Source: an uncultured Pelagibacteraceae bacterium (GTDB taxonomy: Bacteria; Pseudomonadota; Alphaproteobacteria; Pelagibacterales; Pelagibacteraceae). Taken from it: a stretch of DNA of 64,000 nt. Positions 2,500 through 52,336 of the stretch are shown piece by piece. A model generated the notes under the pieces. That model saw only the letters and a list, made by a program, of their open reading frames with translations, was not told the origin of the DNA and searched no databases. The stretch covers positions 1 to 64,000 of the forward strand of contig CACNFY010000005.1 of NCBI GenBank assembly GCA_902619925.1, written 5' to 3'. Numbering within the stretch: the first letter of the stretch is position 1; every line of letters starts with the position of its first letter. The position numbers and the translations under genes were made by a program.

Positions 2500-3294
2500 A
2501 TGATAGGATTAATTTTTGGTGATACAGATTTTCCAAATAAAATACTTAAAACAATCAAGAAAAGAAAGATAAAGTATTTAATAATCGATTTATCAAAATC
2601 AAAGAAATTTAAAAAAGATAATAAATCTTATTCAGTTTCCATTGGCCAATTTGGAAAAATAATTAATATTCTTAAAGAAAATAGTTGTAGAAAGGTTTTA
2701 TTTGCTGGAAAAGTTAATAAACCAAACTTTTCTAAGCTAAAGCTAGATATCAAAGGATTTTATTATATCCCAAGAATTATCAAAGCATCTAAACTTGGTG
2801 ATGCCGCAATTTTGAAAGAGATCATAAAAATACTAGCTCAAAATAATATAAAAACTGAAAATTCACTGAAATTTAATCCAGAGCTTACTCTTAAAAAGGG
2901 GGATTATTCAAGGATCAAACCAAATAATAGCGATCAATTAGATATTAAGAAGGCTATTAAAACGCTAAATAATTTAAAAGAATATAATTATAGCCAAGCT
3001 ATAGTAATCAGAAATAATAAAATAATTTCCATAGAGGGAAAAGGTGGAACAAAAAAAATGCTTGAAAATAGTAAAAGTAAAAAATATCGAAAACGAGGTA
3101 TTTTAGTTAAATTTCCAAAAAAGAAACAAGATCTTAGAGTTGATTTACCTACTATTGGTTTAAAAACTTTAAAGCAAAGTAAAACAGCTGGATTAAAAGG
3201 CATTGTTATAAAAAGTAAACAACATGTTTTTTTAGATAAAAATAAATGCATTAGCTTTGCTAATAAGAATAAGATGTTTATCTCTGTGAAATGA
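2500..3294 (+). CDS. lpxI: UDP-2,3-diacylglucosamine pyrophosphatase LpxI (DUF1009 type)
   Basis: DUF1009-like sequence (GDAAILKEIIKIL, DLPTIGLKTLKQSKTAGLKGIVI) between lpxA and lpxB. Confidence 0.9.
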   Translation: MIGLIFGDTDFPNKILKTIKKRKIKYLIIDLSKSKKFKKDNKSYSVSIGQFGKIINILKENSCRKVLFAGKVNKPNFSKLKLDIKGFYYIPRIIKASKLGDAAILKEIIKILAQNNIKTENSLKFNPELTLKKGDYSRIKPNNSDQLDIKKAIKTLNNLKEYNYSQAIVIRNNKIISIEGKGGTKKMLENSKSKKYRKRGILVKFPKKKQDLRVDLPTIGLKTLKQSKTAGLKGIVIKSKQHVFLDKNKCISFANKNKMFISVK

Positions 3295-37414: not shown

Positions 37415-38299
37415 TTATTTTACAAGAAAATTCACTTTTTTATTTGATAGATTTAAATGAATTTTTTTATGTGAGCCAAAATTATCTCCATCAATTTGAA
37501 CAGGCATCAAATCATTTCCATCAATTGTAATGTTTTGTGCATAAGTAGTAATAACATTTTTATTTTTACTTAAATCACCATTAAGAATTATTAAAAATAT
37601 TGAATATAATAAACTAATCCTAGTCAAATCTTTAAATATATAGGTGACTAATTTATCTTCAAAAATATTTGTTTTATTTATTTTATGATGTCCAGCGTAA
37701 TATTTGGTATTTGAAGATAATATCCAGTCTGCTTGATAAAATTGATCATCAAAAGTGACATTTAATTTTTTATTATTCATAAACAAGAAATATTGAAAAC
37801 CTTTGATACCAAATATAATTTTACCTAGAAACTTTTTAATTTTTGAATTAATTGAATGAACAATTTTTGCATCCCATCCTATACCAGCCATTAAAAAGAA
37901 ATAATTCTCGTTAATTTTTACAAGATTAGAGGATTTATAATTATTAGAAACCAATATATTGACTATATCATCAACTTTTTTATTCATTGATAATTCAGCT
38001 TGAAGCAAATTAGCAGTACCAGCAGGAATATAACCTATGGCAAAATCGTCTTTAAAATTAAAATTATTTTTAATTAATTCATTAATTGCAAAAGAAACTG
38101 AACCATCACCACCAGCTACTATTAGTCGATCATAATTTTTTTGATTAAAATTTTTGAAAATTTTCTTAGCTTGATTTATTGTTTTAGTCTCAAAGTAGTC
38201 TACAGAAATATTCTCTTTTAACTTAGATAAAATCCTATTTATGAATTTATATTTTCTTCCAGAGGAAGAATTCAAATTATAAATCAAACAACATAACAT
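37415..38299 (-). CDS. Diacylglycerol/lipid kinase (DAGK catalytic domain, YegS type)
   Basis: YDRLIVAGGDGSVSFAINEL, IGYIPAGTANLLQAEL. Confidence 0.88.
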   Translation of the reverse strand: MLCCLIYNLNSSSGRKYKFINRILSKLKENISVDYFETKTINQAKKIFKNFNQKNYDRLIVAGGDGSVSFAINELIKNNFNFKDDFAIGYIPAGTANLLQAELSMNKKVDDIVNILVSNNYKSSNLVKINENYFFLMAGIGWDAKIVHSINSKIKKFLGKIIFGIKGFQYFLFMNNKKLNVTFDDQFYQADWILSSNTKYYAGHHKINKTNIFEDKLVTYIFKDLTRISLLYSIFLIILNGDLSKNKNVITTYAQNITIDGNDLMPVQIDGDNFGSHKKIHLNLSNKKVNFLVK

Positions 38300-38318
38300 A
38301 ATTAATCCTTAAAAAATT

Positions 38319-38335
38319 TTTAACAAATTTGTAAC
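38319..38335 (+). promoter_or_regulatory. Candidate PhoB box upstream of the plcP-like gene
   Basis: TTTAAC-aaatt-TGTAAC, half-sites 11 bp apart; same TTTAACAAA..TGTAACA architecture as upstream of pstS. Confidence 0.6.
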
Positions 38336-38397
38336 ATTTAAATGAAATAAGAAATACATGATTCGTGTTACAGTTGTATTAAAAAATAGGTTTTTAA

Positions 38398-39210
38398 ATG
38401 CCTAATTTACTTAAATATAAAAGTATATTTATTTCTGATGTTCATTTAGGTACCAAGGGTTGTCAGGCAAAAAAACTTTTAGAGTTTTTTAAAAACTCAA
38501 GATCCGAAAATCTTTATCTTGTAGGGGACATTATAGATATCTGGGAAATGCAAAAAAGCTTTTTTTGGCCTCAAGAACATAATGATGTAATCCAAAAAAT
38601 TTTAAGAAAAGCTAGGCATGGTACTAAAGTTTTCTACATTATGGGTAATCATGACGAAATGTTAAGAAAATTTATTCCAATGCATTTTGGTGACATCCAT
38701 ATGGTTAATAGAGTTATTCATGAGACAAATGCAGGAAAAAAATATGTTGTTGTTCATGGTGATGCTTGGGATGGTGTTATGAAACATGCTAAATGGTTAT
38801 CTAAACTTGGATCAATAGCCTATAATTTACTATTAAAATTAAATGTAATAATTAATTTTTTTAGAAGATTGAGAGGAAAAGAATATTGGTCTCTTGCAAA
38901 ATTTTTAAAGTATAAAGTCAAAAATGCAGTTAAATATATTGGTGAATATGAAAAAACACTTTCAGATTATGCAAAAAGAAAAAAATTTGATGGAATTATT
39001 TGTGGCCACATCCATCATGCTGAGGATAGAGATTTTAATGGGGTCAATTATTTAAATTGTGGAGACTGGGTTGAGTCCTGCACTGCATTAGCCGAAAATT
39101 ATGATGGTAGTTTTGAAATATTATATTGGGACAAAATAAGAGAACAATATTTAGACGATAAAGAAAAAATTGAACCAATTAAAACTGAAGAATTAAAAAA
39201 AGCTTCGTAA
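38398..39210 (+). CDS. plcP: LpxH-like calcineurin-type metallophosphoesterase, likely PlcP phospholipase of lipid remodelling
   Basis: ISDVHLGTKGC, GDIIDIWE, MGNHDE, VVHGDAWD, GHIHHAE; paired with a glycosyltransferase; LpxI elsewhere in the window makes an LpxH role unnecessary. Confidence 0.75.
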   Translation: MPNLLKYKSIFISDVHLGTKGCQAKKLLEFFKNSRSENLYLVGDIIDIWEMQKSFFWPQEHNDVIQKILRKARHGTKVFYIMGNHDEMLRKFIPMHFGDIHMVNRVIHETNAGKKYVVVHGDAWDGVMKHAKWLSKLGSIAYNLLLKLNVIINFFRRLRGKEYWSLAKFLKYKVKNAVKYIGEYEKTLSDYAKRKKFDGIICGHIHHAEDRDFNGVNYLNCGDWVESCTALAENYDGSFEILYWDKIREQYLDDKEKIEPIKTEELKKAS

Positions 39211-39213
39211 TTA

Positions 39214-40221
39214 ATGAAAATTTTAATTGTTACAGATGCATATTTTCCCCAAGTAAATGGTGTTGTAAGAACCTTACATGAAACAGGCAATATATTAAAA
39301 GAACAAGGTCATAGAATAGAATATATTACACCTGACTTATTTTTTACTTTTCCTATGCCGAAATATAATGAAATTAGGTTGTCTATAAATGTATGGCCCA
39401 GAGTTGGTAGTTTAATAAAGAAAATCAATCCAGATGCAATTCATATCGCTACCGAAGGCCCGATAGGCACTATGGCAAGAAGATATTGTTTAAAAAATAA
39501 TCTAAAGTTTACTACGAGTTTCCATACAAGATTTGATAAATATCTAAAACTTTACTTTCCTATTATACCAGCAAAATGGGCTGAAAAATTCTTAGCAAAT
39601 TTTCATAATAAGGCTGAGAGAATTTTAGTAACTACAGAGTCTATGAGAAAAGAATTAATCGATATAGGTATAGATGACAATAAAATGATTACTTGGACTA
39701 GAGGAGGAAATCATGGAGCTTTTAAGAACCCTAAAAAAATTGATTTACCTCATAAAAGACCTATTTGGATTTATGTTGGAAGAGTTGCAGTTGAAAAAAA
39801 CATAAGAGCTTTCTTAGAATGTGATTTAGAAGGTACAAAGATAATTATAGGAAAAGGACCTGATTTAAAAAAATTGAAAAAAGAATTCCCTAAAGATATT
39901 TTTTTAGGAGAAAAAACAAATGGTGAATTAGCATCACATTTTGCATCCTCTGATGTTTTTGTTTTCCCAAGTAAAACAGATACATTTGGAATTGTAGTTA
40001 CAGAAGCTTTAAATTGTGGAACACCTGTTGCTGCGTATCCTGTTCCAGGTCCTAAAGATATATTTGAAGGATCCAAAATAAATTGTTTAGATGATGATCT
40101 TAAAGTATCAGCACATAAAGCTTTGAAAGTTAATAGAAATGATTGTCTTGAATTTGCAAAAAAATTCACTTGGGAAGAAACAGCAAAAATATTTTTTAAC
40201 AATATTTCACCAAATCATTAG
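39214..40221 (+). CDS. agt: GT4-family glycosyltransferase, likely diacylglycerol glycosyltransferase (Agt/SqdX type)
   Basis: TDAYFPQVNGVVRTLHETG, FHTRFDKYL, FVFPSKTDTFGIVVTEALNCGTPV; directly downstream of the plcP-like gene. Confidence 0.75.
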   Translation: MKILIVTDAYFPQVNGVVRTLHETGNILKEQGHRIEYITPDLFFTFPMPKYNEIRLSINVWPRVGSLIKKINPDAIHIATEGPIGTMARRYCLKNNLKFTTSFHTRFDKYLKLYFPIIPAKWAEKFLANFHNKAERILVTTESMRKELIDIGIDDNKMITWTRGGNHGAFKNPKKIDLPHKRPIWIYVGRVAVEKNIRAFLECDLEGTKIIIGKGPDLKKLKKEFPKDIFLGEKTNGELASHFASSDVFVFPSKTDTFGIVVTEALNCGTPVAAYPVPGPKDIFEGSKINCLDDDLKVSAHKALKVNRNDCLEFAKKFTWEETAKIFFNNISPNH

Positions 40222-40286: not shown

Positions 40287-41429
40287 ATGGAATATTTCGT
40301 CATTCTACTTATAGTTGTGATAGTTTATCTTCTCTATTTACTTAATCAAAAAAAAAATAAATCAATAAATACCGCTACAATAGTTAATAAAAGAGAAGAA
40401 AAAACAAAAAGAGTAATTATTGATGAGCTTGAAGATCAATTTTTTGCATTAAATAAATTTAACATAATTAAATATGCCAATCCAAGTGCATTAAAAAGAT
40501 TTGGAAGTAATTTAATTGATAAAAACATATCTTCTATAATTCGAAAACCAGAATTAATAGAAAATATTGAAAAAGCTATCGTAGAAAATAAAACAAAAAA
40601 TATCGATGTTGAAATAGACCTCCCATCATATCAATTCTATAAAATTTATATTATTCCTGGCCCAACTCATTTGTTTACTGAACCAGACTCTGTTGTGTTA
40701 TTTTTAAAAGATTTTACTGAAATTACAAAAGCACAAAAATTTAAAACTGATTTTGTAGCAAATGTAAGCCATGAATTAAGAACACCTTTAATGGCAATCA
40801 AAGGATCACTAGAAACAATTGAGGGCCCAGCGTCTGATGATGAAAAGGCTAAAAAAAAATTTATGAAAATTTTATCTGAACAATCAACAAGGATGGAAAG
40901 TTTAATTAATGATCTATTAATTCTTACACGGATTGAACTTGATGAACATATAAGACCTACTTCAATAGTAAATATTAATGAACTCTTTGAAACTATTATT
41001 AGTAATTTTGAAATTGTTTTAAAAAAGAAAAATATAACTGTTAAAAATCAATTAACAAATACATCAATTGTTATAGGTGATGAAAAAAGATTAAATACAG
41101 TTTTTTCTAATCTTTTGGATAATTCAATAAAATATTCTCCAGAAAATAAAAATATATATATTTTTAAAAATGAAAATAGTAACAAACTATTAGAAAAGAA
41201 TATAATGATTAGTATTAAAGATGAAGGTTATGGCATTCCACATGAACACATTTCGCGTGTTACAGAAAGATTTTACAGGGTTGACACAGAACAAAGTAAT
41301 AAACTTGGTGGAACTGGTTTAGGATTAGCTATTGTTAAACACATAATTACTCAACACAGAGGTGATTTTGAGATTCTTTCAGAGGTTGGTAAAGGTACTG
41401 AAATTAAAATATATTTGCCTTCGAAATAA
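40287..41429 (+). CDS. phoR: Phosphate regulon sensor histidine kinase PhoR
   Basis: Single TM, H-box FVANVSHELRTPLMAIKGSLETIEG, GGTGLGLAIVKHI; adjacent to pst operon. Confidence 0.9.
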   Translation: MEYFVILLIVVIVYLLYLLNQKKNKSINTATIVNKREEKTKRVIIDELEDQFFALNKFNIIKYANPSALKRFGSNLIDKNISSIIRKPELIENIEKAIVENKTKNIDVEIDLPSYQFYKIYIIPGPTHLFTEPDSVVLFLKDFTEITKAQKFKTDFVANVSHELRTPLMAIKGSLETIEGPASDDEKAKKKFMKILSEQSTRMESLINDLLILTRIELDEHIRPTSIVNINELFETIISNFEIVLKKKNITVKNQLTNTSIVIGDEKRLNTVFSNLLDNSIKYSPENKNIYIFKNENSNKLLEKNIMISIKDEGYGIPHEHISRVTERFYRVDTEQSNKLGGTGLGLAIVKHIITQHRGDFEILSEVGKGTEIKIYLPSK

Positions 41430-41462
41430 AAATTTAAAAAAAACTTCATTTTACAACCCTTA

Positions 41463-41495
41463 TTTGAGAAAACTTTAACATTTCTTTGATTGATT
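41463..41495 (+). promoter_or_regulatory. Possible degenerate PhoB repeat array
   Basis: Three consecutive 11-mers TTTGAGAAAAC/TTTAACATTTC/TTTGATTGATT upstream of the exported orphan. Confidence 0.35.
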
Positions 41496-41524
41496 CGTGT
41501 ATAGATTTTATTTAAGTTTTTATA

Positions 41525-42133
41525 ATGTTTAAAATACTCAAAAATATTCTAATATTTTTTTATTTAATCTTGTTTTTCACAACTAGTGTATATTCAAAAG
41601 ACCTTTCTACTCTTTTACGTACTCAGCAATTAACAGTTTTTGACATAGGTATTTTTAGATTAGAAGAGGACTTAAAGAGTTCTTATCCTGCTGTAAAGAA
41701 ACATAAAGATGTGCCTTATGAAGATATATATATGGATGTTGTCAGTTCCTATTGGAGAAATACAGTAGATTTAATTGTTTCAATCCCAGTAAATGAAAAT
41801 TTAAAAAAAGAGAATTATATGTCAGACTCATTTAGATGTAGAAATATATTTAATTCAGTAAGAGATCATTTGTTGAGAAACGAAAATTTAAGTAATTATA
41901 GGTTTACTATGGCAACTAGTTATTTAACATCTGTTTTTTCTACTCCAAGCACATGGCCAAGATGGCGATACGATCAAAGCGTCTTAGAAGAATTAGTTAA
42001 TTTAGTGAAACTTGAAGTTATTTTGAGACCTACAACTGAGCTTGCTTTTAAAGATAAAGTTAACCCTGTTTCTTGTAAAGGTGGTTTAGAAACAGAAAAT
42101 GATGAGATTATAATCTCAATGAATTACAACTAA
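41525..42133 (+). CDS. Uncharacterised exported protein in the Pho locus
   Basis: Signal-peptide-like N-terminus ILIFFYLILFFTTSVYSKD; no family recognised by eye; lies between phoR and pstS. Confidence 0.85.
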   Translation: MFKILKNILIFFYLILFFTTSVYSKDLSTLLRTQQLTVFDIGIFRLEEDLKSSYPAVKKHKDVPYEDIYMDVVSSYWRNTVDLIVSIPVNENLKKENYMSDSFRCRNIFNSVRDHLLRNENLSNYRFTMATSYLTSVFSTPSTWPRWRYDQSVLEELVNLVKLEVILRPTTELAFKDKVNPVSCKGGLETENDEIIISMNYN

Positions 42134-42144
42134 AAAGTTATCTT

Positions 42145-42172
42145 TTTAACAAAAGTGTAACAATTCTGTAAT
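42145..42172 (+). promoter_or_regulatory. PhoB box array upstream of pstS
   Basis: TTTAACaaaag-TGTAACaattc-TGTAAT, three half-sites at 11-bp spacing. Confidence 0.75.
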
Positions 42173-42242
42173 ATTAAAGATTCAATTAATTTGTACGAGT
42201 CACTCACTTTTATATTAATTAATAACGAAAGGATTAAAGATA

Positions 42243-43274
42243 ATGAAAAAACTAACTATAGTGATCGCTTCTTTAGTTGCTTTATCAATAGCAACTGTTG
42301 CTCAAGCAAGAGATCAAATTAAGATAGTTGGTTCCTCTACGGTATTCCCTTACGCAACAGTTGTTGCTGAAAGATTTGGTGGTTCAGGATTTAAAACTCC
42401 TGTGATCGAGTCTACTGGTACTGGTGGTGGAGCTAAACTATTCTGTGCTGGTGTAGGTGAACAACATCCAGATATTACAAACGCATCAAGAGCTATGAAA
42501 GATAAAGAAAAAGCTCTATGTAAGAAAAATGGTGTTAATGATATCGTTGAGATCGTAATTGGTAACGATGGTATTACATTAGCTTACAGCAAAGATGCAA
42601 AACCAGTAAACTTTACTAAAGAACAATTATATTTAGCACTTGCTGCTCATACAGTTGTTGATGGTAAATTAGTTCCAAATATTTATAAAACTTGGGACCA
42701 AATTGACCCTAGCTTACCAAAACAAAAAATTTCAGTGATGATCCCACCAGGAACATCAGGAACTAGAGATGCTTGGAATTCTTTAGTAATGAAAAAAGGT
42801 ATGACTAAAGAAGCTAAAGCTCTTTATAAAGCTGGTTTTGAAGCTGGAAATAAAAAATACAAAAAACCTCAAAAACTTTACAGAGAAGATGGTGCTGCTA
42901 TTGAAGTTGGAGAAAACGATAGTTTAATCATCCAAAAGTTAACTCAAGATAAAGAAATGTTTGGTTTCTTTGGTTTCAGTTATTTCTTAGCTGCAAAAGA
43001 TAAATTGCAAGCAGCAAGTATTGATGGTGGACAACCGTCATTAAAGTCTATTCAAGACTACAGTTATGCTGTTGCTAGACCTTTATTCTTCTACGTGAAA
43101 AAAGCACACGTTGGAGTAATTCCAGGCTTACATGAGTTTGTGAAAGAATTCACAACTAAGAAAGCTATTGGAAAAGGTGGTTACTTAGCAGACATTGGTT
43201 TAGTGCCATTAGACTCTAAGTTGTATAAAACAACTAGAACTAATGCTACGAAGCTAGTTGCTATGGGTGATTAA
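42243..43274 (+). CDS. pstS: Phosphate ABC transporter substrate-binding protein PstS
   Basis: Signal peptide, IVGSSTVFPYATVVAERF, STGTGGGAKLFCAG, PPGTSGTRDAW. Confidence 0.96.
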   Translation: MKKLTIVIASLVALSIATVAQARDQIKIVGSSTVFPYATVVAERFGGSGFKTPVIESTGTGGGAKLFCAGVGEQHPDITNASRAMKDKEKALCKKNGVNDIVEIVIGNDGITLAYSKDAKPVNFTKEQLYLALAAHTVVDGKLVPNIYKTWDQIDPSLPKQKISVMIPPGTSGTRDAWNSLVMKKGMTKEAKALYKAGFEAGNKKYKKPQKLYREDGAAIEVGENDSLIIQKLTQDKEMFGFFGFSYFLAAKDKLQAASIDGGQPSLKSIQDYSYAVARPLFFYVKKAHVGVIPGLHEFVKEFTTKKAIGKGGYLADIGLVPLDSKLYKTTRTNATKLVAMGD

Positions 43275-43365: not shown

Positions 43366-43941
43366 GTGAACTTAATATTATTTACATTTATTGTTCTTCT
43401 AGGTTTCACAAGCTATTATTTTGGACGCAAAAAAGCATATACAATTCAATCTACAAAAAAAAGATTAACCGCATTACCACAATTTTATGGTTATTATCTT
43501 GCAATCTGGTGTGCAATACCAGCCTTTATAATTTTTTCATTATGGGCAATTTTTGAGCCCACAATTGTAAAACTATTAATCTTAAGTGATTATTCAAATC
43601 AAGGTTATCTTGATAATGAATTAAATTTAATATACGAAAAAACAAAAGCATTGTCTCGAGGTCAATTCACTGGAGAAATTACACCTTTTATTGAGGCTTC
43701 AGCTGAAAAATATTTAAGTCTTCGATCAATAGCTCAAAGTTCAAAAGTTGTTATAGTATTATCTGCAATTATTGCCTCTGTTGCTTATGCATATAAAAGA
43801 ATTTCATCTAATTCTAGAACAAGAGAACCAGTTGAAAAATTTTTGAACGCAGTTTTATTTACAGCTTCTTTAGCTGCAATATTAACTACTGTTGGAATAG
43901 TTTTTTCACTTATATTTCAAACCATAGATTTTTTAAAGTAA
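43366..43941 (+). CDS. pstC: Phosphate ABC transporter permease PstC, N-terminal part (frame interrupted)
   Basis: GTG start after AAGGAG; extended alphaproteobacterial PstC N-terminus; TAA at 43939-43941. Confidence 0.88.
   Translation: MNLILFTFIVLLGFTSYYFGRKKAYTIQSTKKRLTALPQFYGYYLAIWCAIPAFIIFSLWAIFEPTIVKLLILSDYSNQGYLDNELNLIYEKTKALSRGQFTGEITPFIEASAEKYLSLRSIAQSSKVVIVLSAIIASVAYAYKRISSNSRTREPVEKFLNAVLFTASLAAILTTVGIVFSLIFQTIDFLK
43929..43935 (+). other. Slippery heptamer T_TTT_TTA at the pstC frame break
   Basis: Zero frame GAT TTT TTA AAG TAA; the -1 frame continues TTT TTT AAA GTA ATT CCA into PstC-like sequence. Confidence 0.7.
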
Positions 43942-44750
43942 TTCCATTATTTGATTTTGTCTTTGGAACTCACTGGTATCCAGCAAAAGCTTTTGTTAGA
44001 GATTCTTCTGAGGCTTTAGATCCGACAATGTATTCAGATACTTTTGGAGCAGTCCCTATTTTTGCAGGTACTTTTTTTATTGCATTTATTGCTATGTGCG
44101 TTGCTATCCCAATTGGATTAATGAGTGGAATTTATTTAGCTGAATATGCATCAACTAAAGTTAGACAATATGCAAAACCATTAATTGAAATTTTAGCAGG
44201 TATACCAACAGTTGTTTATGGTTTTTTTGCTGCCCTAACTGTTGGACCATTTTTGAAAGAATTAGGAACTTCAATGGGTCTTGAAGTTTCAGCTGAAAGT
44301 GCTTTAGCAGCAGGAGGGGTAATGGGTATTATGATCATACCATTTATTTCAAGTTTAAGTGACGATGTAATTACAAGTGTGCCTCAAAGTTTAAGAGATG
44401 GAAGTTACGCTATGGGAGCAACTAAATCAGAAACAATTAAGAGAGTTATTTTTCCCGCGGCATTGCCGGGGATAGTTGGATCTATTTTACTTGGTGTTTC
44501 AAGAGCTATTGGAGAAACAATGATAGTTGTTATGGCCTCTGGTTTAGCTGCTAATTTAACTTTAAATCCTTTAGAGTCTACTTCAACGATTACAGCTCAA
44601 ATTGTAGTTATTCTAATTGGTGACCAAGCTTTTGGCGACCCAAAAACGCAAGCTGCTTTTGCTTTAGGTATGTCATTATTTTTAGTAACACTTTGTTTAA
44701 ATATTGTGGCCTTGAGAGTAGTTAAAAAATATAGAGAAAAATATGAATAA
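43935..44750 (+). CDS. pstC: PstC C-terminal part in the -1 frame (first ATG at 44028)
   Basis: -1 frame reads KVIPLFDFVFGTHWYPAKAFVRDSSEALDPTMYSDTFGAVPIFAGTFF...; EAA loop DGSYAMGATKSETIKRVIFPAALPG. Confidence 0.85.
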   Translation, partial: KVIPLFDFVFGTHWYPAKAFVRDSSEALDPTMYSDTFGAVPIFAGTFFIAFIAMCVAIPIGLMSGIYLAEYASTKVRQYAKPLIEILAGIPTVVYGFFAALTVGPFLKELGTSMGLEVSAESALAAGGVMGIMIIPFISSLSDDVITSVPQSLRDGSYAMGATKSETIKRVIFPAALPGIVGSILLGVSRAIGETMIVVMASGLAANLTLNPLESTSTITAQIVVILIGDQAFGDPKTQAAFALGMSLFLVTLCLNIVALRVVKKYREKYE

Positions 44751-46011
44751 AAATAAAGAACAATTATTAAATAAAAGATATAAAGCTGAACAGCGATTTC
44801 GCTTATACGGTCTGAGTGCAATTTTTATGGCACTTTTATTTTTAACAATCTTTATTTTTAAAATTTTTTCAACTGGCTATTCAGCTTTTCAAAAAACATG
44901 GCTTGTTGTTCCAGTAACTTTCGATGCTGAATTAATGATGTTAGACCAAAATCCTTCTAAAGAAGATTTACAGGACGCTGATTATTACGATATAGCATTA
45001 AAATCAATGGCTGATTTAGATCCAAAAGCCAATGAAGATCAAGAAAATGAATTGAAGAGAATGGTGTCTTATTTTTTTGAAAAAGAAATTAAAAATGAAC
45101 TTTTAAATGACCCTAATTTAATAGGAAAAACAAAGGAAGTTTATCTAACTGCTTCAGATGATTTAGACCAAGTCTTTAAAGGAAATTATCCAAGAGATTT
45201 ACCTGAAGACCAAAGAAGAGTAAGCGATTATCAATTAAAAATTTTTGATCAACTTGTTGCAAATGGTAAGGTTGAAAGTAAATTTAATATAAGTTTTTTT
45301 ACAAATGCTGACTCAAGAGAGGCTGAGTTAGCTGGAATAGCAAGTTCATTTATGGGCTCAATTTTTTCTATACTTGTTTGTTTAATGATAGCTTTTCCTG
45401 TTGCGGTTCTAGCGGCAATCTATCTTGAGGAATTTGCCCCTAAAAATAGATTTACTGATTTTATTGAAGTAAATATAAACAACTTAGCAGCGGTTCCATC
45501 TATAGTTTTTGGTCTATTAGGATTAGGAGTTTTATTGGCTATATTTCAATTACCAAGGTCTACCCCATTAGTTGGAGGTATCACTTTGTCCTTAATGACC
45601 TTACCAACAATAATTATAGCTGCTAGAGCATCTTTAAAAGCAGTTCCACCAAGTATAAGAGAGGCAGCACTTGCTATGGGAGCAAGTCGGATGCAAACCA
45701 CAATGCATCATACAGTTCCTCTTTCTATGCCTGGCACGTTATCAGGAACAATAATTGGTTTAGCTCAAGCCTTAGGAGAAACTGCACCCCTAATTTTAAT
45801 TGGAATGGTTGCTTTTGTTAACACGATACCTGGATCACCCATGGATCCTGCTGCAAGCTTACCAGTTCAAATTTATATTTGGGCTGAAAGTGCTGAAAGG
45901 GGATTTGTAGAAAAAGTTTCGGCATGTATAATGGTCTTACTTGGCTTTTTAATAATAATGAATTTATTTGCCCAAATAATAAGACATAAGTTTGAGAAAA
46001 AATGGAGTTAA
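44743..46011 (+). CDS. pstA: Phosphate ABC transporter permease PstA
   Basis: Long N-terminal periplasmic region, [28 protein letters not shown] loop. Confidence 0.94.
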
Positions 46012-46012
46012 A

Positions 46013-46768
46013 ATGATAAAGATTAAAGCAAAAGATGTTGATGTTTTTTATGGAAAAAAACAAGCGCTCTTTAATATAAGTTTAGATATTGAGGAAAATC
46101 AAGTAACGGCATTAATTGGTCCATCTGGTTGTGGTAAATCAACTTTCCTAAGATGTCTTAATAGAATGAATGATGTAATTGATATCTGTAGTGTTAAAGG
46201 AGAAATTTTAATTAATGATTTTAATATCAATGATAAAAGTTGTGATGTCGTAAGACTAAGAGAAAAAATTGGTATGGTTTTTCAAAAACCCAATCCTTTC
46301 CCAAAAACTTTATATGAAAATGTATCTTACGGTCCAACAATTCATGGTATGGCTCAATCAAAACAAGAAATGGATGAAATTGTTGAAACTAGTTTGAAAA
46401 AGGCTGCACTATGGGAAGAGGTAAAAGATAGGTTGCATGAACCTGGAACTGGATTATCTGGAGGACAACAGCAAAGACTTTGTATTGCTAGAGCGATTTC
46501 TGTAAGACCAGAAGTTATATTAATGGATGAGCCTTGTTCAGCATTAGATCCTATAGCAACAGCGCAAATTGAAGAATTGATTGATGAGTTAAAAAAAGAG
46601 CACACAATAATAATTGTAACTCATTCTATGGCTCAAGCAGCACGTGTTTCTCAAAATACAGGTTTTTTTCATTTAGGACAATTGATTGAACATGGATCTA
46701 CTGATAAAATATTTAAGAATCCTGATAATAAAAAAACGCAAGATTATATAACAGGGAGGTTTGGATAA
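46013..46768 (+). CDS. pstB: Phosphate ABC transporter ATP-binding protein PstB
   Basis: [51 protein letters not shown] at 46013. Confidence 0.96.
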
Positions 46769-47475
46769 TGTCTGAAGCACCACATACAGTCAAATCTTAC
46801 GAAGAAGAACTAAAAAATCTTAATGCTAATATAATTAAAATGGGAAGTGCATGTGAAGATTCTTTAGGTAAAGCAATTCAAGCCATTACAACAAGAGATA
46901 ACAATATTGCAGAAGCTGTTATTCAAAAAGATCAAAAAATAGATAAATATGAGAGTTTAATTGAACAGCAAGTTGTGAATTTAATTGCTTTAAGACAACC
47001 TATGGCAATTGATTTAAGAGAGACAGTAACGGCTTTGAAAATGTCTTCAGATTTAGAAAGAATAGGTGATTTAGCAAAAAATATATCTAAGAGAACACTT
47101 TTGCTTAACGAAAATCTTCCAAAGAACTTGGTAGACTCATTGAATAGAGTATCTACCAATGTTCAAAAACAATTAAAATCAACATTAGATGCTTATCTAG
47201 AAAGATCTGCGCCAATGGCAGTAAATGTTTGGGAAGGTGATGAGCAAACAGATGATCTAACAAATCTTTGTATGCAAGAAGTTATAAAATATCTTAAAGA
47301 AAATGAAAAAAATTTAGAAGATGGAACCCATTTATTGTTTGTAACTAAAAACATAGAGCGTATTGGTGATCATACTACAAATGTTGCAGAACAAGTTTAT
47401 TATTTAGTTAAAGGCGAATATTTAGAAGGTGATAGACCCAAGGGAACAGAGCCAATTGTAACCGGAGAAAAATGA
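46768..47475 (+). CDS. phoU: Phosphate signalling protein PhoU
   Basis: KMSSDLERIGDLAKNISKR and TKNIERIGDHTTNVAEQVYYLVKG repeats. Confidence 0.95.
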   Translation: MSEAPHTVKSYEEELKNLNANIIKMGSACEDSLGKAIQAITTRDNNIAEAVIQKDQKIDKYESLIEQQVVNLIALRQPMAIDLRETVTALKMSSDLERIGDLAKNISKRTLLLNENLPKNLVDSLNRVSTNVQKQLKSTLDAYLERSAPMAVNVWEGDEQTDDLTNLCMQEVIKYLKENEKNLEDGTHLLFVTKNIERIGDHTTNVAEQVYYLVKGEYLEGDRPKGTEPIVTGEK

Positions 47476-47478
47476 TTT

Positions 47479-48162
47479 ATGTCAGCTCATGTTTTCATAG
47501 CTGAAGATGAAGCATCAATTGTTAGTTTGTTAAAGTACAATCTTGAAAAAGAAGGTTATAAAGTCAGTCATTCAGAAAATGGAGAAGATGCTCTTAAACA
47601 AATAAAATTAAAACAGCCAGATTTAATATTAATGGATTGGATGTTACCAGAATTATCTGGTGTTGAAATTTGTAAAAACTTAAAAAAAGATAATAAGTTT
47701 AATGATATTCCTGTCATTATGTTAACTGCAAAAGGGGAGGAAGAAGACAAATTAAAAGCATTTGATACAGGTGCAGATGATTATGTAACTAAACCTTTTA
47801 GTCAAAAAGAATTGAATGCTAGAATTAAATCTTTATTGAGAAGATCTAAACCTCAATCATCATCAGACATTGTAGAATTTACTGATTTAAAAATAGATCG
47901 GATTACAAAAAGAGTTTATAGAAAAGATAAAGAAATTACTTTGGGTCCAACTGAATTTAAACTCTTAGATTTTTTTATCAAAAATCCAAAAAGAGTTTAT
48001 TCAAGAGAACAACTCTTAAACAATGTTTGGGGAGAAAATATATATGTTGAGTCTAGAACAGTTGATGTTCATATTAGAAGATTAAGACAAGCAATTAATA
48101 TACAAAATACAAAACCTTTAATTAGAACAGTAAGATCAGCTGGTTATTCTTTAGAATCTTGA
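47479..48162 (+). CDS. phoB: Phosphate regulon response regulator PhoB
   Basis: Receiver domain plus OmpR-type wHTH; adjacent to phoU. Confidence 0.94.
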   Translation: MSAHVFIAEDEASIVSLLKYNLEKEGYKVSHSENGEDALKQIKLKQPDLILMDWMLPELSGVEICKNLKKDNKFNDIPVIMLTAKGEEEDKLKAFDTGADDYVTKPFSQKELNARIKSLLRRSKPQSSSDIVEFTDLKIDRITKRVYRKDKEITLGPTEFKLLDFFIKNPKRVYSREQLLNNVWGENIYVESRTVDVHIRRLRQAINIQNTKPLIRTVRSAGYSLES

Positions 48163-48681: not shown

Positions 48682-50838
48682 ATGACTGCTTTAAAAAAAC
48701 AACATAAAGAAGAGTTGAAATCTAAATATATAAATAGAGAGCTTTCTTGGTTAAAATTCAACGATAGAGTACTTTTAGAGGCGCAAAATATCGAAAATCC
48801 TCTTTATGAAAGAGTAAAGTTTTTATCAATTGCTGGGTCTAATCTAGATGAATTTTTTATGGTCCGTGTAGCTGGGTTATATAGTCAAATAAAACAAGAA
48901 GTTGACTCACTAAGCTCTGATGGTTTGACACCTGAAGAGCAAATGGATGAGGTAGTGCTTGAAACTAAGAAACTATTAAAAAAACAGAACAAAATTTTTA
49001 TTCAACTGATTATGGAATTAAAAAAAAATAATATCAATTTAGTTAAACCAGTTAATTTAAATACTAAGGATAAAAAAAAACTTTTAGAAATATTTAAAGA
49101 AGAGATTTACCCTTTATTAACACCATCAGCAATTGATCCTGCACATCCATTTCCATTTATAATCAATCAAGGAAGAGCAATTGTAATGAAGTTAAGAAAA
49201 AAAAATAAAAAAAGGATTTTAAACTCAATAATAGTAATACCAAAAGCATTATCTAGATTTATTGAAATTGAGTCTTCAAAAAATCATAAGAAATTTGTGA
49301 TTCTAGATGATGTAATAAGTTTTTTTGCTAATGAAATTTTTCCAGATCATGATTTAGAAAAGAAAATGATTTTTAGAGTAATAAGAGACAGCGATGTAGA
49401 GATTCAAGAGGAAGCAGAAGATTTGGTTAGATCTTTTGAATTAGCTTTAAAAAGACGTAGAACGGGTGATATTGTTCGTTTAGAGGTTCTTGAAAATAGT
49501 GATAACGAATTGATAAGATTTATAACTAATAAATTAGATATAAATCCTGACTATATTTATGATGTTGCTGGCCTTGTTGGAATTCAAGATATAGATCAAA
49601 TATGTAAAGTAAAAAATCCAAAATTAAGATTTAAACATTTTACACCTAGAGAAGTTGAAAGATTAAAAGAATATAATGATAATTTTTTTGAAACTATTAA
49701 AAAGAAAGATTTAGTTGTTCATCATCCTTTCGAAACATTTGACTCAGTAATTGAATTTTTAAACCAAGCAGCAAATGATAAAAAAGTTATAGCTATAAAA
49801 CAAACTCTATATAGAACAACTCTAGACTCACCTATTGTTAAAGCTTTAATAACAGCTGCAGAAAACGGAAAAACAGTTACCGCTTTAATTGAAATTAAAG
49901 CTAGATTTGATGAGGAAGCTAATATTCAACTATCAAGAAGTTTAGAAAAAGTAGGTGTTCAAATTGTTTATGGTTTTGCTAAATATAAAACTCATGCAAA
50001 ATCATCATTAGTTTTAAGAAGAGAACAGGGTAAAATACAAACTTATTTTCATTTAGGAACTGGCAATTATCATCCAGTAAATGCTAAAATTTATACTGAT
50101 TTGTCTTTATTTAGTTGTGATAAGAAAATGGCATCAGATGTTGAAAAGTTTTTCAATTATGTAACAGGATACGCAAAACCAAAAAATTTAAATAAAATTT
50201 CTATTTCGCCAGTAAATATGAGGCAAACCTTAAATGAAAATATTGATGCTGAAATTAAAAATTCTAAAAATGGAAAATTTGCAGCTATTTGGGCAAAAAT
50301 GAACTCTTTAGTAGATCCAGAAATTATTGATAAATTTTATGAAGCTTCGAATGCTGGTGTAAAAATTCATTTATTTGTAAGGGGTGTTTGTTGTTTAAGA
50401 CCAGGAGTAAAAGATAGATCAGAAAACATATTTGTAAAAAGTATCATAGGAAGATTTTTAGAGCATTCTAGAATTTACTGCTTTAGTAATGGTACAAAAA
50501 AAATGCCTAATAGAAATGCAAAAGTATATATTTCGTCAGCTGATTTAATGCCGAGAAATTTAAATCGAAGGGTAGAACTTCTAGTCCCAATTGAAAATGA
50601 GACTGTTCATGAACAGATCTTAGATCAAATAATGTTGGCAAATTATCTTGATACTAATCAGAGCTGGGAACTTGAAGCTGATGGTAATTATAAAAAAATT
50701 AAATATAGTAAGAGCGATTCCTTTTCAGCTCATGAATATTTTATGAATAATCCGAGCTTATCTGGAAGAGGTAAAGCTAAACTAAGAATGCAGCCTAAAC
50801 AACTGCACTTAAGATTGATTAAAAGTGGAAGTAATTAA
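48682..50838 (+). CDS. ppk: Polyphosphate kinase
   Basis: RELSWLKFNDRVLLEA, IKQTLYRTTLDSPIVKAL, YGFAKYKTHAKSSLVLRRE. Confidence 0.96.
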   Translation: MTALKKQHKEELKSKYINRELSWLKFNDRVLLEAQNIENPLYERVKFLSIAGSNLDEFFMVRVAGLYSQIKQEVDSLSSDGLTPEEQMDEVVLETKKLLKKQNKIFIQLIMELKKNNINLVKPVNLNTKDKKKLLEIFKEEIYPLLTPSAIDPAHPFPFIINQGRAIVMKLRKKNKKRILNSIIVIPKALSRFIEIESSKNHKKFVILDDVISFFANEIFPDHDLEKKMIFRVIRDSDVEIQEEAEDLVRSFELALKRRRTGDIVRLEVLENSDNELIRFITNKLDINPDYIYDVAGLVGIQDIDQICKVKNPKLRFKHFTPREVERLKEYNDNFFETIKKKDLVVHHPFETFDSVIEFLNQAANDKKVIAIKQTLYRTTLDSPIVKALITAAENGKTVTALIEIKARFDEEANIQLSRSLEKVGVQIVYGFAKYKTHAKSSLVLRREQGKIQTYFHLGTGNYHPVNAKIYTDLSLFSCDKKMASDVEKFFNYVTGYAKPKNLNKISISPVNMRQTLNENIDAEIKNSKNGKFAAIWAKMNSLVDPEIIDKFYEASNAGVKIHLFVRGVCCLRPGVKDRSENIFVKSIIGRFLEHSRIYCFSNGTKKMPNRNAKVYISSADLMPRNLNRRVELLVPIENETVHEQILDQIMLANYLDTNQSWELEADGNYKKIKYSKSDSFSAHEYFMNNPSLSGRGKAKLRMQPKQLHLRLIKSGSN

Positions 50839-52336
50839 AAGTAAAAATAGTTTAAAATTAAATCAGGCAAAATTAGCTATAATAGACATTGGATCAAACT
50901 CTATAAGAATGCTAATTTATGAAGATTTCAGTTCTTCTCGTGTGCCTTTTTTTAATGAAAAAGCAGTTTGTGAACTTGGAAAAAATTTAGATAAATCCAA
51001 AAAACTTCACAGATCTGGTACCGAATATGCTTTAAAAGTTTTAAAAAGATTCTCTGAAATTTTAAATGTTTCAAAAATCACAAATCTTAAAATCATTGCA
51101 ACAGCAGTTTTAAGAGAAGCAACTGATACAAAACCATTTATTAATGAAGTTGAAAAACTTTTTAAAACTAAGATTAATATATTATCTGGTGAAGAAGAAG
51201 CTGAATGCTCAGCTGAGGGAGTAAAAATAGGCTTTGAAAATGTCAATGGATTAGTTGCTGATCTTGGAGGTGGAAGTTTAGAATTAGCTCGAGTTGAAAA
51301 TAATATAGTTACTAATAAAACCTCATTACCTGTTGGAGTTTTAAGATTATTAAATAATCCTATAGTTAAAAAAAGAAATTTAGCAAAATATATCAAAAAA
51401 TTATTAAGAGAAGAAAAATGGCTTTCAAAAAAGAAATTTAATAATCTATATTTAGTTGGAGGTACCTGGCGAGCATTATTTAAATTACATCTTTTTCAAA
51501 ATAATCATCCGGTACATATAATTCATCAATATAGTATTGATAACAATGTTTTATCTAAGTTTGTTGAAAAAATTTCATCTTTTAATAAATCTAAACTTAA
51601 AACAGTTGAGTATATTTCAAAATCTAGAACAGCGTATTTACCTTATAGTTGCATTATACTTGATGAAATTATGAAAGTTACAAATCCAAGAAATATAATT
51701 TGTTCTATAAGCGGTTTGCGTGAAGGTTCTTTATCAATTGACTATTTTAAAGATGTAAAAGAATCAGAAATTTTTTATAAAGCACTTGAGAATATTGCAA
51801 AAAAAAGAGGTGATCTAGGATCGAACTATAAAAAATATTATGATTTTATTCAGCCAGTTTTTGAAGGCAATGAACATTTTAATAAGAAATTATTATATCT
51901 GGCATGTGTATTAAGTCATATGGATTGGGGATTAGGAGCATTTCAAAAAGCTGAATTGGTATTTCAAGAAACAATAAATACTCCTTTACTTAGATTGACT
52001 CATAAAGAAAGAATACAATTAGCTTTGTCATGTTATTGGCGGTACTGTAGTATCAAGTATAATCCAAAGATGGAGTATCTAACTTTTTTAAATAATAATG
52101 AAATTTTTTCAAGCAAACAAGTTGGAGCAGCATTGAGATTTTCACAATCATTGACCTCGATATCTACGATATTTCTTGAAGAGTTTAAATTGTATAAAAG
52201 AGGTAATGCTGTATTTTTAAAAATTCCATCACAACATCAAGAAATAATCTCAAAACAAGTTACTAAAAGATTTAAAGCTCTTGCTAGAGAATTATTTTTA
52301 GAGCCAAGAATAATTTATTCAAATAATTCAAAATAA
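50825..52336 (+). CDS. ppx: Exopolyphosphatase (Ppx/GppA family)
   Basis: AIIDIGSNSIRMLIYE, LVADLGGGSLELARV, ISGLREGSLSIDYF. Confidence 0.92.
   Translation: MEVIKSKNSLKLNQAKLAIIDIGSNSIRMLIYEDFSSSRVPFFNEKAVCELGKNLDKSKKLHRSGTEYALKVLKRFSEILNVSKITNLKIIATAVLREATDTKPFINEVEKLFKTKINILSGEEEAECSAEGVKIGFENVNGLVADLGGGSLELARVENNIVTNKTSLPVGVLRLLNNPIVKKRNLAKYIKKLLREEKWLSKKKFNNLYLVGGTWRALFKLHLFQNNHPVHIIHQYSIDNNVLSKFVEKISSFNKSKLKTVEYISKSRTAYLPYSCIILDEIMKVTNPRNIICSISGLREGSLSIDYFKDVKESEIFYKALENIAKKRGDLGSNYKKYYDFIQPVFEGNEHFNKKLLYLACVLSHMDWGLGAFQKAELVFQETINTPLLRLTHKERIQLALSCYWRYCSIKYNPKMEYLTFLNNNEIFSSKQVGAALRFSQSLTSISTIFLEEFKLYKRGNAVFLKIPSQHQEIISKQVTKRFKALARELFLEPRIIYSNNSK

Follow-up and report, generated by a model that had tools for sequence, protein, structure and literature searches.

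The question raised by this locus is whether a diacylglycerol (DAG) kinase, a metallophosphoesterase and a glycosyltransferase adjoining the Pho-Pst genes of a member of the Pelagibacteraceae form one phosphate-controlled lipid module, and if so, which part the kinase plays in it. SAR11 is among the commonest marine bacterial groups, and lipid remodelling cuts the need for phosphorus. The window, i.e., the whole stretch of 64,000 nt that was analysed, originates from a 1.10-Mb draft genome of 30 contigs. Its relevant genes are arranged in the following order.

37415-38299, - strand: DAG kinase, a DgkB/YegS-type lipid kinase (PF00781; DAGK_cat 6e-22)
38398-39210, + strand: plcP, predicted intracellular phospholipase C-type metallophosphoesterase (tree position with PlcP of Sinorhizobium meliloti; GNHD motif)
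39214-40221, + strand: agt, predicted GT4 diacylglycerol glycosyltransferase (H104/D256 dyad, GRVAVEKN, FPSKTDTFG, W320)
40287-41429, + strand: phoR, sensor kinase (TIGR02966 3.3e-86, 289 bits, under the curated cut-off of 334)
41525-42133, + strand: 202-aa protein with a signal-like N-terminus (no Pfam/NCBIfam match; position kept in most relatives)
42243-43274, + strand: pstS, phosphate-binding protein (PF12849 9e-42)
43366-44750, + strand: pstC (split; T run one base shorter)
44743-46011, + strand: pstA (PF11812, PF00528)
45992-46768, + strand: pstB (PF00005)
46768-47475, + strand: phoU (PF01895)
47479-48162, + strand: phoB (PF00072, PF00486)
48682-52336, + strand: ppk and ppx, polyphosphate kinase and exopolyphosphatase

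The three lipid genes are located at the positions and on the strands given for them in a preliminary description of this DNA. DAG kinase and plcP are divergent with 98 bp between them, and agt is followed by phoR after 65 nt. The claim that the pair leads directly into phoR-pst holds, since phoR and then the pst genes were identified by profiles downstream; plcP and agt indeed adjoin, but the spacing of 4 nt given for them was counted as 3 nt. The order of kinase (- strand), plcP and agt is kept in 80 SAR11 loci on contigs reaching both genes, as well as in the majority of other Pelagibacteraceae loci examined, and thus the arrangement is not due to chance.

Downstream of agt, the gene of the 202-aa protein holds its place between phoR and pstS in the majority of SAR11 relatives, and its product may be a partner of PhoR. 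Together with the C-terminal half of phoR it forms a block (40870-42180) with two allele classes, which among 69 loci are represented by 10 window-like and 59 other members. Between the classes, DNA identity is approximately 65-80% inside flanks at 95-99%, a pattern suggestive of the two linked genes having recombined as a pair. In case of pstC, the reading frame is split into two at 43931-43940, while it is uninterrupted in L123 and L008; L123 contains one extra T in the run at the split site, and the probable cause is either faulty assembly of single-cell data or a frameshift of recent date.

Pho-box repeats with an 11-bp period are present upstream of the pathway genes, and the most conserved block of the kinase-plcP intergenic region resembles the block preceding pstS. 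The following sites were predicted.

38318-38336, + strand: Pho box facing plcP, TTTTAACAAATTTGTAACA, 61 bp before the plcP ATG
38366-38384, - strand: inverted Pho box facing the DAG kinase, TTTTAATACAACTGTAACA, 66 bp before the kinase ATG
42144-42173, + strand: pstS Pho box, three half-sites with an 11-bp period

The pattern shared by the lipid and pstS promoters occurs, with at most one mismatch, twice in the 1.1-Mb genome; due to the fact that it was derived from those two sites, an independent model trained on pstS sites is the fairer test. Such a model of 19 columns was built from the pstS sites of relatives, excluding the window, and all window positions were ranked. A model of 30 columns, which covers three half-sites and suits pstS, was discarded for being too long in case of the lipid promoter. 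The pstS site ranked first (26.1 bits), followed by the plcP-facing site (25.7 bits) and the inverted kinase-facing site (19.8 bits), whereas the next-best site beyond the two promoters reached 14.5 bits. Among 28 related intergenic regions, the plcP-facing box scored at least 15 bits in 27. The kinase-facing box scored at least 16 bits in 10, all from the window's part of the tree. We read this as plcP being an old Pho target, with the kinase having presumably joined the regulon in this clade, where induction probably extends to all three lipid genes at once; PhoB binding and co-induction are predicted here from the control sites. GANTC sites, possible targets of CcrM methylation, recur just 3' of the Pho boxes before plcP and pstS in many relatives (regions 38340-38397 and 42174-42242 of the window).

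Control of plcP-agt by the Pho system, with the kinase co-induced and recycling DAG, is our preferred explanation and is considered quite probable. At low phosphate, PhoB would bind at 38318-38336 and induce plcP-agt; PlcP would then cleave phospholipids to DAG and a phosphorylated head group, and Agt would glycosylate the DAG. These two enzymatic steps are known (PMC4796936, PMC8231724). In the subclade of the window, the inverted box at 38366-38384 would be a second PhoB target, so that the kinase would be induced simultaneously and turn surplus DAG back into phosphatidic acid, thereby buffering free DAG. PlcP and the kinase would thus turn one class of phospholipid into another, with Agt draining part of the flow.

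The preliminary description had proposed a reversible switch, in which plcP-agt run under phosphorus stress and the divergent kinase restores phospholipids upon the return of phosphorus. Such a switch is chemically sensible, and in the 18 of the 28 related regions in which the kinase lacks a Pho box of its own, basal expression of the kinase is possible while plcP-agt are off. In the clade of the window, however, only two sites of the 64 kb outscore the kinase-facing box, which points to induction alongside plcP-agt and not opposed to it. Since Pho boxes on both arms predict co-induction, they argue against a simple reversible switch; with both arms carrying boxes here and the kinase-facing box missing in those 18 regions, the switch is unsupported as stated and appears rather unlikely. 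Buffering of DAG or exchange of head groups is favoured as the better fit than an on/off switch.

The preferred explanation assigns the kinase to the module, and its identity and distribution bear on this point. The GGDG motif is present and invariant in the alignment, and the best solved relative, matched over almost the full length, is DgkB of Staphylococcus aureus (PDB 2qv7, 2e-19). Due to scores below the equivalog cut-offs (PRK13337, 115 bits versus 385; subfamily TIGR00147, 103 versus 119), the protein is described as a lipid kinase of the DgkB superfamily and not filed as DgkB. YegS-type kinases vary, and DAG as the substrate as well as the direction of use are predicted from sequence. 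It is the sole PF00781 protein found in the draft genome. Among 197 genomes of the family, plcP was found in 85 and a kinase match in 91, with both in 80 and neither in 101 (odds ratio 147, Fisher p 2.7e-36, a statistic that ignores shared ancestry). Five genomes contain plcP only, and in three of these the contig ends at plcP. A kinase match is likewise missing from nearly all plcP-less genomes, including single-contig genomes estimated as 99-100% complete. In G019 and G071, plcP-agt is present and the kinase is not adjacent, and in loci L118 and L119 of genus g5, plcP-agt occurs without a kinase beside it. Kinase matches in G101 and G152 (short, E approximately 5e-4 to 9e-4) and in G010 (a 29-aa piece) were excluded, being either non-orthologous or truncated.

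Alternatively, the kinase could be an unrelated neighbour with a housekeeping role. In L126 (1517-3643) and L127 (361-2476), a kinase of the same family and phoR are divergent neighbours that lack an intervening plcP-agt; no Pho box was found between kinase and phoR in these two loci, and L127 contains an ORF resembling glycerophosphodiester phosphodiesterases on the far side of the kinase. Furthermore, G135 encodes a family member without Pho genes in the 5 kb examined. These cases are compatible with a separate role, and the former two indicate that the kinase is not strictly tied to PlcP. Against a housekeeping function in SAR11 stands the lack of a kinase match in nearly all plcP-less genomes, complemented by the strong co-occurrence with plcP and the Pho box of the kinase in the window, and this alternative is regarded as distinctly improbable. 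Judged from gene content and neighbourhood, the kinase is a member of the Pho neighbourhood, almost always accompanied by plcP but not strictly dependent on it. Both co-inheritance and, in this clade, its own inverted Pho box speak for the earlier inclusion of the kinase in the module, and together they make its role directly testable.

The cleavage step of the preferred explanation requires that 38398-39210 encodes PlcP and not LpxH of lipid A synthesis. The product matches Pfam Metallophos (1e-12), contains all metal-site motifs of PlcP (DxH, GD, GNHD, HGD, and GHxH) and is 100% identical to PlcP of named SAR11 single-cell genomes. In a maximum likelihood tree of 83 proteins, the bootstrap of which had not fully settled, 27 LpxH proteins (those above the TIGR01854 cut-off) are separated with 100/100 support from the window protein, its SAR11 relatives and PlcP of S. 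meliloti. Position 85 is occupied by histidine in 56/56 rows of the PlcP clade and by arginine in 27/27 LpxH rows; accordingly, the window protein contains GNHD where LpxH has GNRD. Its TIGR01854 score is 39 bits compared to a cut-off of 190. Furthermore, the same genome encodes LpxI, which makes an LpxH role of 38398-39210 unnecessary.

2500-3294, + strand: lpxI (PF06230, PF17930)

Although relatives of the phosphoesterase carry LpxH names in databases and automatic models return weak LpxH matches (NCBIfam, 4e-13 and 4.5e-10, far under the cut-off), the LpxH reading is scarcely credible and was rejected in view of tree placement, motif, LpxI, Pho boxes and the agt partner. The argument from lpxI had already been put forward, and the two profiles confirm the gene. 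A second PF00149 match in the genome (G000:C2) is YmdB-like and thus neither LpxH nor a second PlcP. Phospholipase C function of the window protein is predicted; for marine PlcP, Mn-dependent activity on PE and PG is reported by work as cited in PMC8231724.

The agt product matches Pfam Glyco_transf_4 (1e-21) and Glycos_transf_1 (4e-18), and is 83% identical to the Agt beside plcP in the SAR11 locus L097 (genome G035). Matches to GT4 enzymes of the PDB are weak and of partial length. Mutation of a set of residues abolishes the activity of the SAR11 enzyme GTcp (PMC8231724), and those which were compared, i.e., G16, G82, G85, H104, R190, K195, D256, T257, F258, G259, E264, and W320, occur at the same positions in the window Agt. 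The motifs GRVAXEKN and FPSXTDTFG occur as GRVAVEKN and FPSKTDTFG. MGlc-DAG or MGlcA-DAG is the predicted product. Considering the tree, the diagnostic residues, the catalytic residues of Agt, LpxI and the Pho boxes, the proposed identification of the pair as plcP-agt is strongly supported by sequence.

PlcP is also widespread in phages. A search of phage genomes revealed a PlcP, annotated as UDP-2,3-diacylglucosamine hydrolase, in pelagimyophage Mosig EXVC030M, a SAR11 phage with HTCC1062 as host, where the gene and a phage pstS lie in divergent orientation around a Pho-like site of 15.1 bits. In the Mosig-like contigs L283-L293, the region preceding plcP yielded no Pho box except for a weak one in L289, so that the Mosig site rests on one genome. 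Scans of IMG/VR with three queries yielded 9, 109, and at least 574 PlcP relatives.

L192, 7995-8732 (MT647606.1, 94129-94866): phage plcP locus
L195-L203 and L204-L362: further phage plcP loci

The following fractions describe a sample of best-scoring viral loci that includes related contigs: for the 157 loci with more than 500 bp downstream, the gene after plcP encodes an Agt-type GT4 in 78, a GT2 in 64 and neither in 15, i.e., a glycosyltransferase adjoins plcP in 142, and pstS occurs in the available stretch of 24 out of 170 loci. No DAG kinase was found near plcP in the viral loci examined, and the combination of plcP and a glycosyltransferase with never a kinase nearby is expected if the kinase represents the return arm. 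The repeat TGTNAY-N5-TGTNAY is present within 150 bp upstream of 31 out of 132 distinct viral plcP genes and in 4 out of 1,320 control stretches, an approximately 78-fold enrichment, part of which may be explained by intergenic composition since the controls were taken from all positions.

With respect to the viral origin of these records, a terminase was detected in 9 out of 20 tested, though the same model matches 11 out of 14 bacterial controls and is insufficient as sole evidence. The Mosig and L202 records encode a gp23 capsid protein of T4 type, a T4-type DNA polymerase or UvsX gene adjoins the plcP-glycosyltransferase pair in eleven loci, and tail fibre, endolysin and PAAR genes occur in other viral loci. 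No published report of phage plcP was found in the open-access literature. In annotated phage records PlcP is named an LpxH-type hydrolase, and two virome papers mention 'lpxH' as a viral gene; the auxiliary 'lpxH' genes of viral surveys may thus often be plcP.

It is tempting to link two claims, namely the kinase as a third Pho-induced recycling arm and the phages as carriers of the forward arm alone. Phosphate-starved cells of this clade would run PlcP and the kinase at the same time, recycling phospholipid head groups in a loop that Agt drains. Phages, many of them T4-like and Mosig among them, would carry plcP often preceded by Pho boxes of the host type, and would withdraw membrane phosphorus from the infected cell and substitute glycolipid. 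Taken together, we give these claims slightly better than even chances. Functional viral pairs would mean that phages remodel the membranes of their hosts to obtain phosphate, in which case some of the genes called 'lpxH' in viral surveys would have to be renamed.

Compared to known systems, the core of the module, which the preliminary description had put forward as inferred, is already in the literature. The pair and its order are the same in Candidatus Pelagibacter sp. HTCC7211 (PlcP PB7211_983, Agt PB7211_960), the plcP-agt of which has been published (PMC4796936, PMC8231724) with demonstrated Agt activity and PlcP used in complementation (PMC4796936) and with the enzymology of Agt (PMC8231724). 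The kinase, the metallophosphoesterase and the glycosyltransferase have previously been listed together as well: genes for a DAG kinase, for a metallophosphoesterase and for a glycosyltransferase of group 1 are given as over-represented at the Sargasso site BATS, and HTCC7211 was the sole SAR11 genome known at that time to contain any of them (PMC3686209). In its list these appear as separate gene clusters, and that part of the study proposes no module, control sites or function. The islands of HIMB59 (PMC10734472) contain the same parts under other names (DGK, 'LpxH', 'RfaG', PhoR, PhoB, PstSCAB, ppk, and ppx), with the phosphoesterase read as LpxH and the kinase without a direct phosphorus function; the PlcP placement presented here applies to the phosphoesterase of the SAR11 loci, and the likeness to HIMB59 is one of published gene names.

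The head of locus L097 (kinase, plcP and agt) is organized as in the window, but its kinase is without the inverted Pho box, and the two ornithine-lipid acyltransferase genes olsB-olsA are inserted between agt and phoR in L097 and several other loci, one for an N-acyltransferase resembling OlsB and one for an acyltransferase resembling OlsA/OlsF. Carini et al. 2015 (PNAS) reportedly described a four-gene P-induced cluster in HTCC7211, which we take to be plcP, agt, olsA, and olsB. In the window, agt leads straight into phoR with no olsB-olsA between them, and its genome is not among the 17 out of 197 that match an olsB query. Since most SAR11 genomes with plcP-agt are without an olsB match, extrapolation from L097 to the whole clade is unwarranted, and lipid predictions for that locus should not be extended in this way.

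More distantly, PlcP of S. meliloti (L193) belongs to the same tree clade with 46% identity to the window PlcP. Its neighbours, in a context presumably that of SMc00171, are a LuxR regulator and an acyl-homoserine-lactone synthase, with no adjacent agt or pst in the stretch examined. DgkB of S. aureus, to which the kinase is closest among solved structures, serves Gram-positive lipid turnover in a housekeeping capacity, whereas the window kinase accompanies plcP and has Pho control sites. Beyond these systems, the present analysis adds that the kinase is co-inherited and has an inverted Pho box of its own, that the ornithine arm is missing here, and that phages carry versions of the module.
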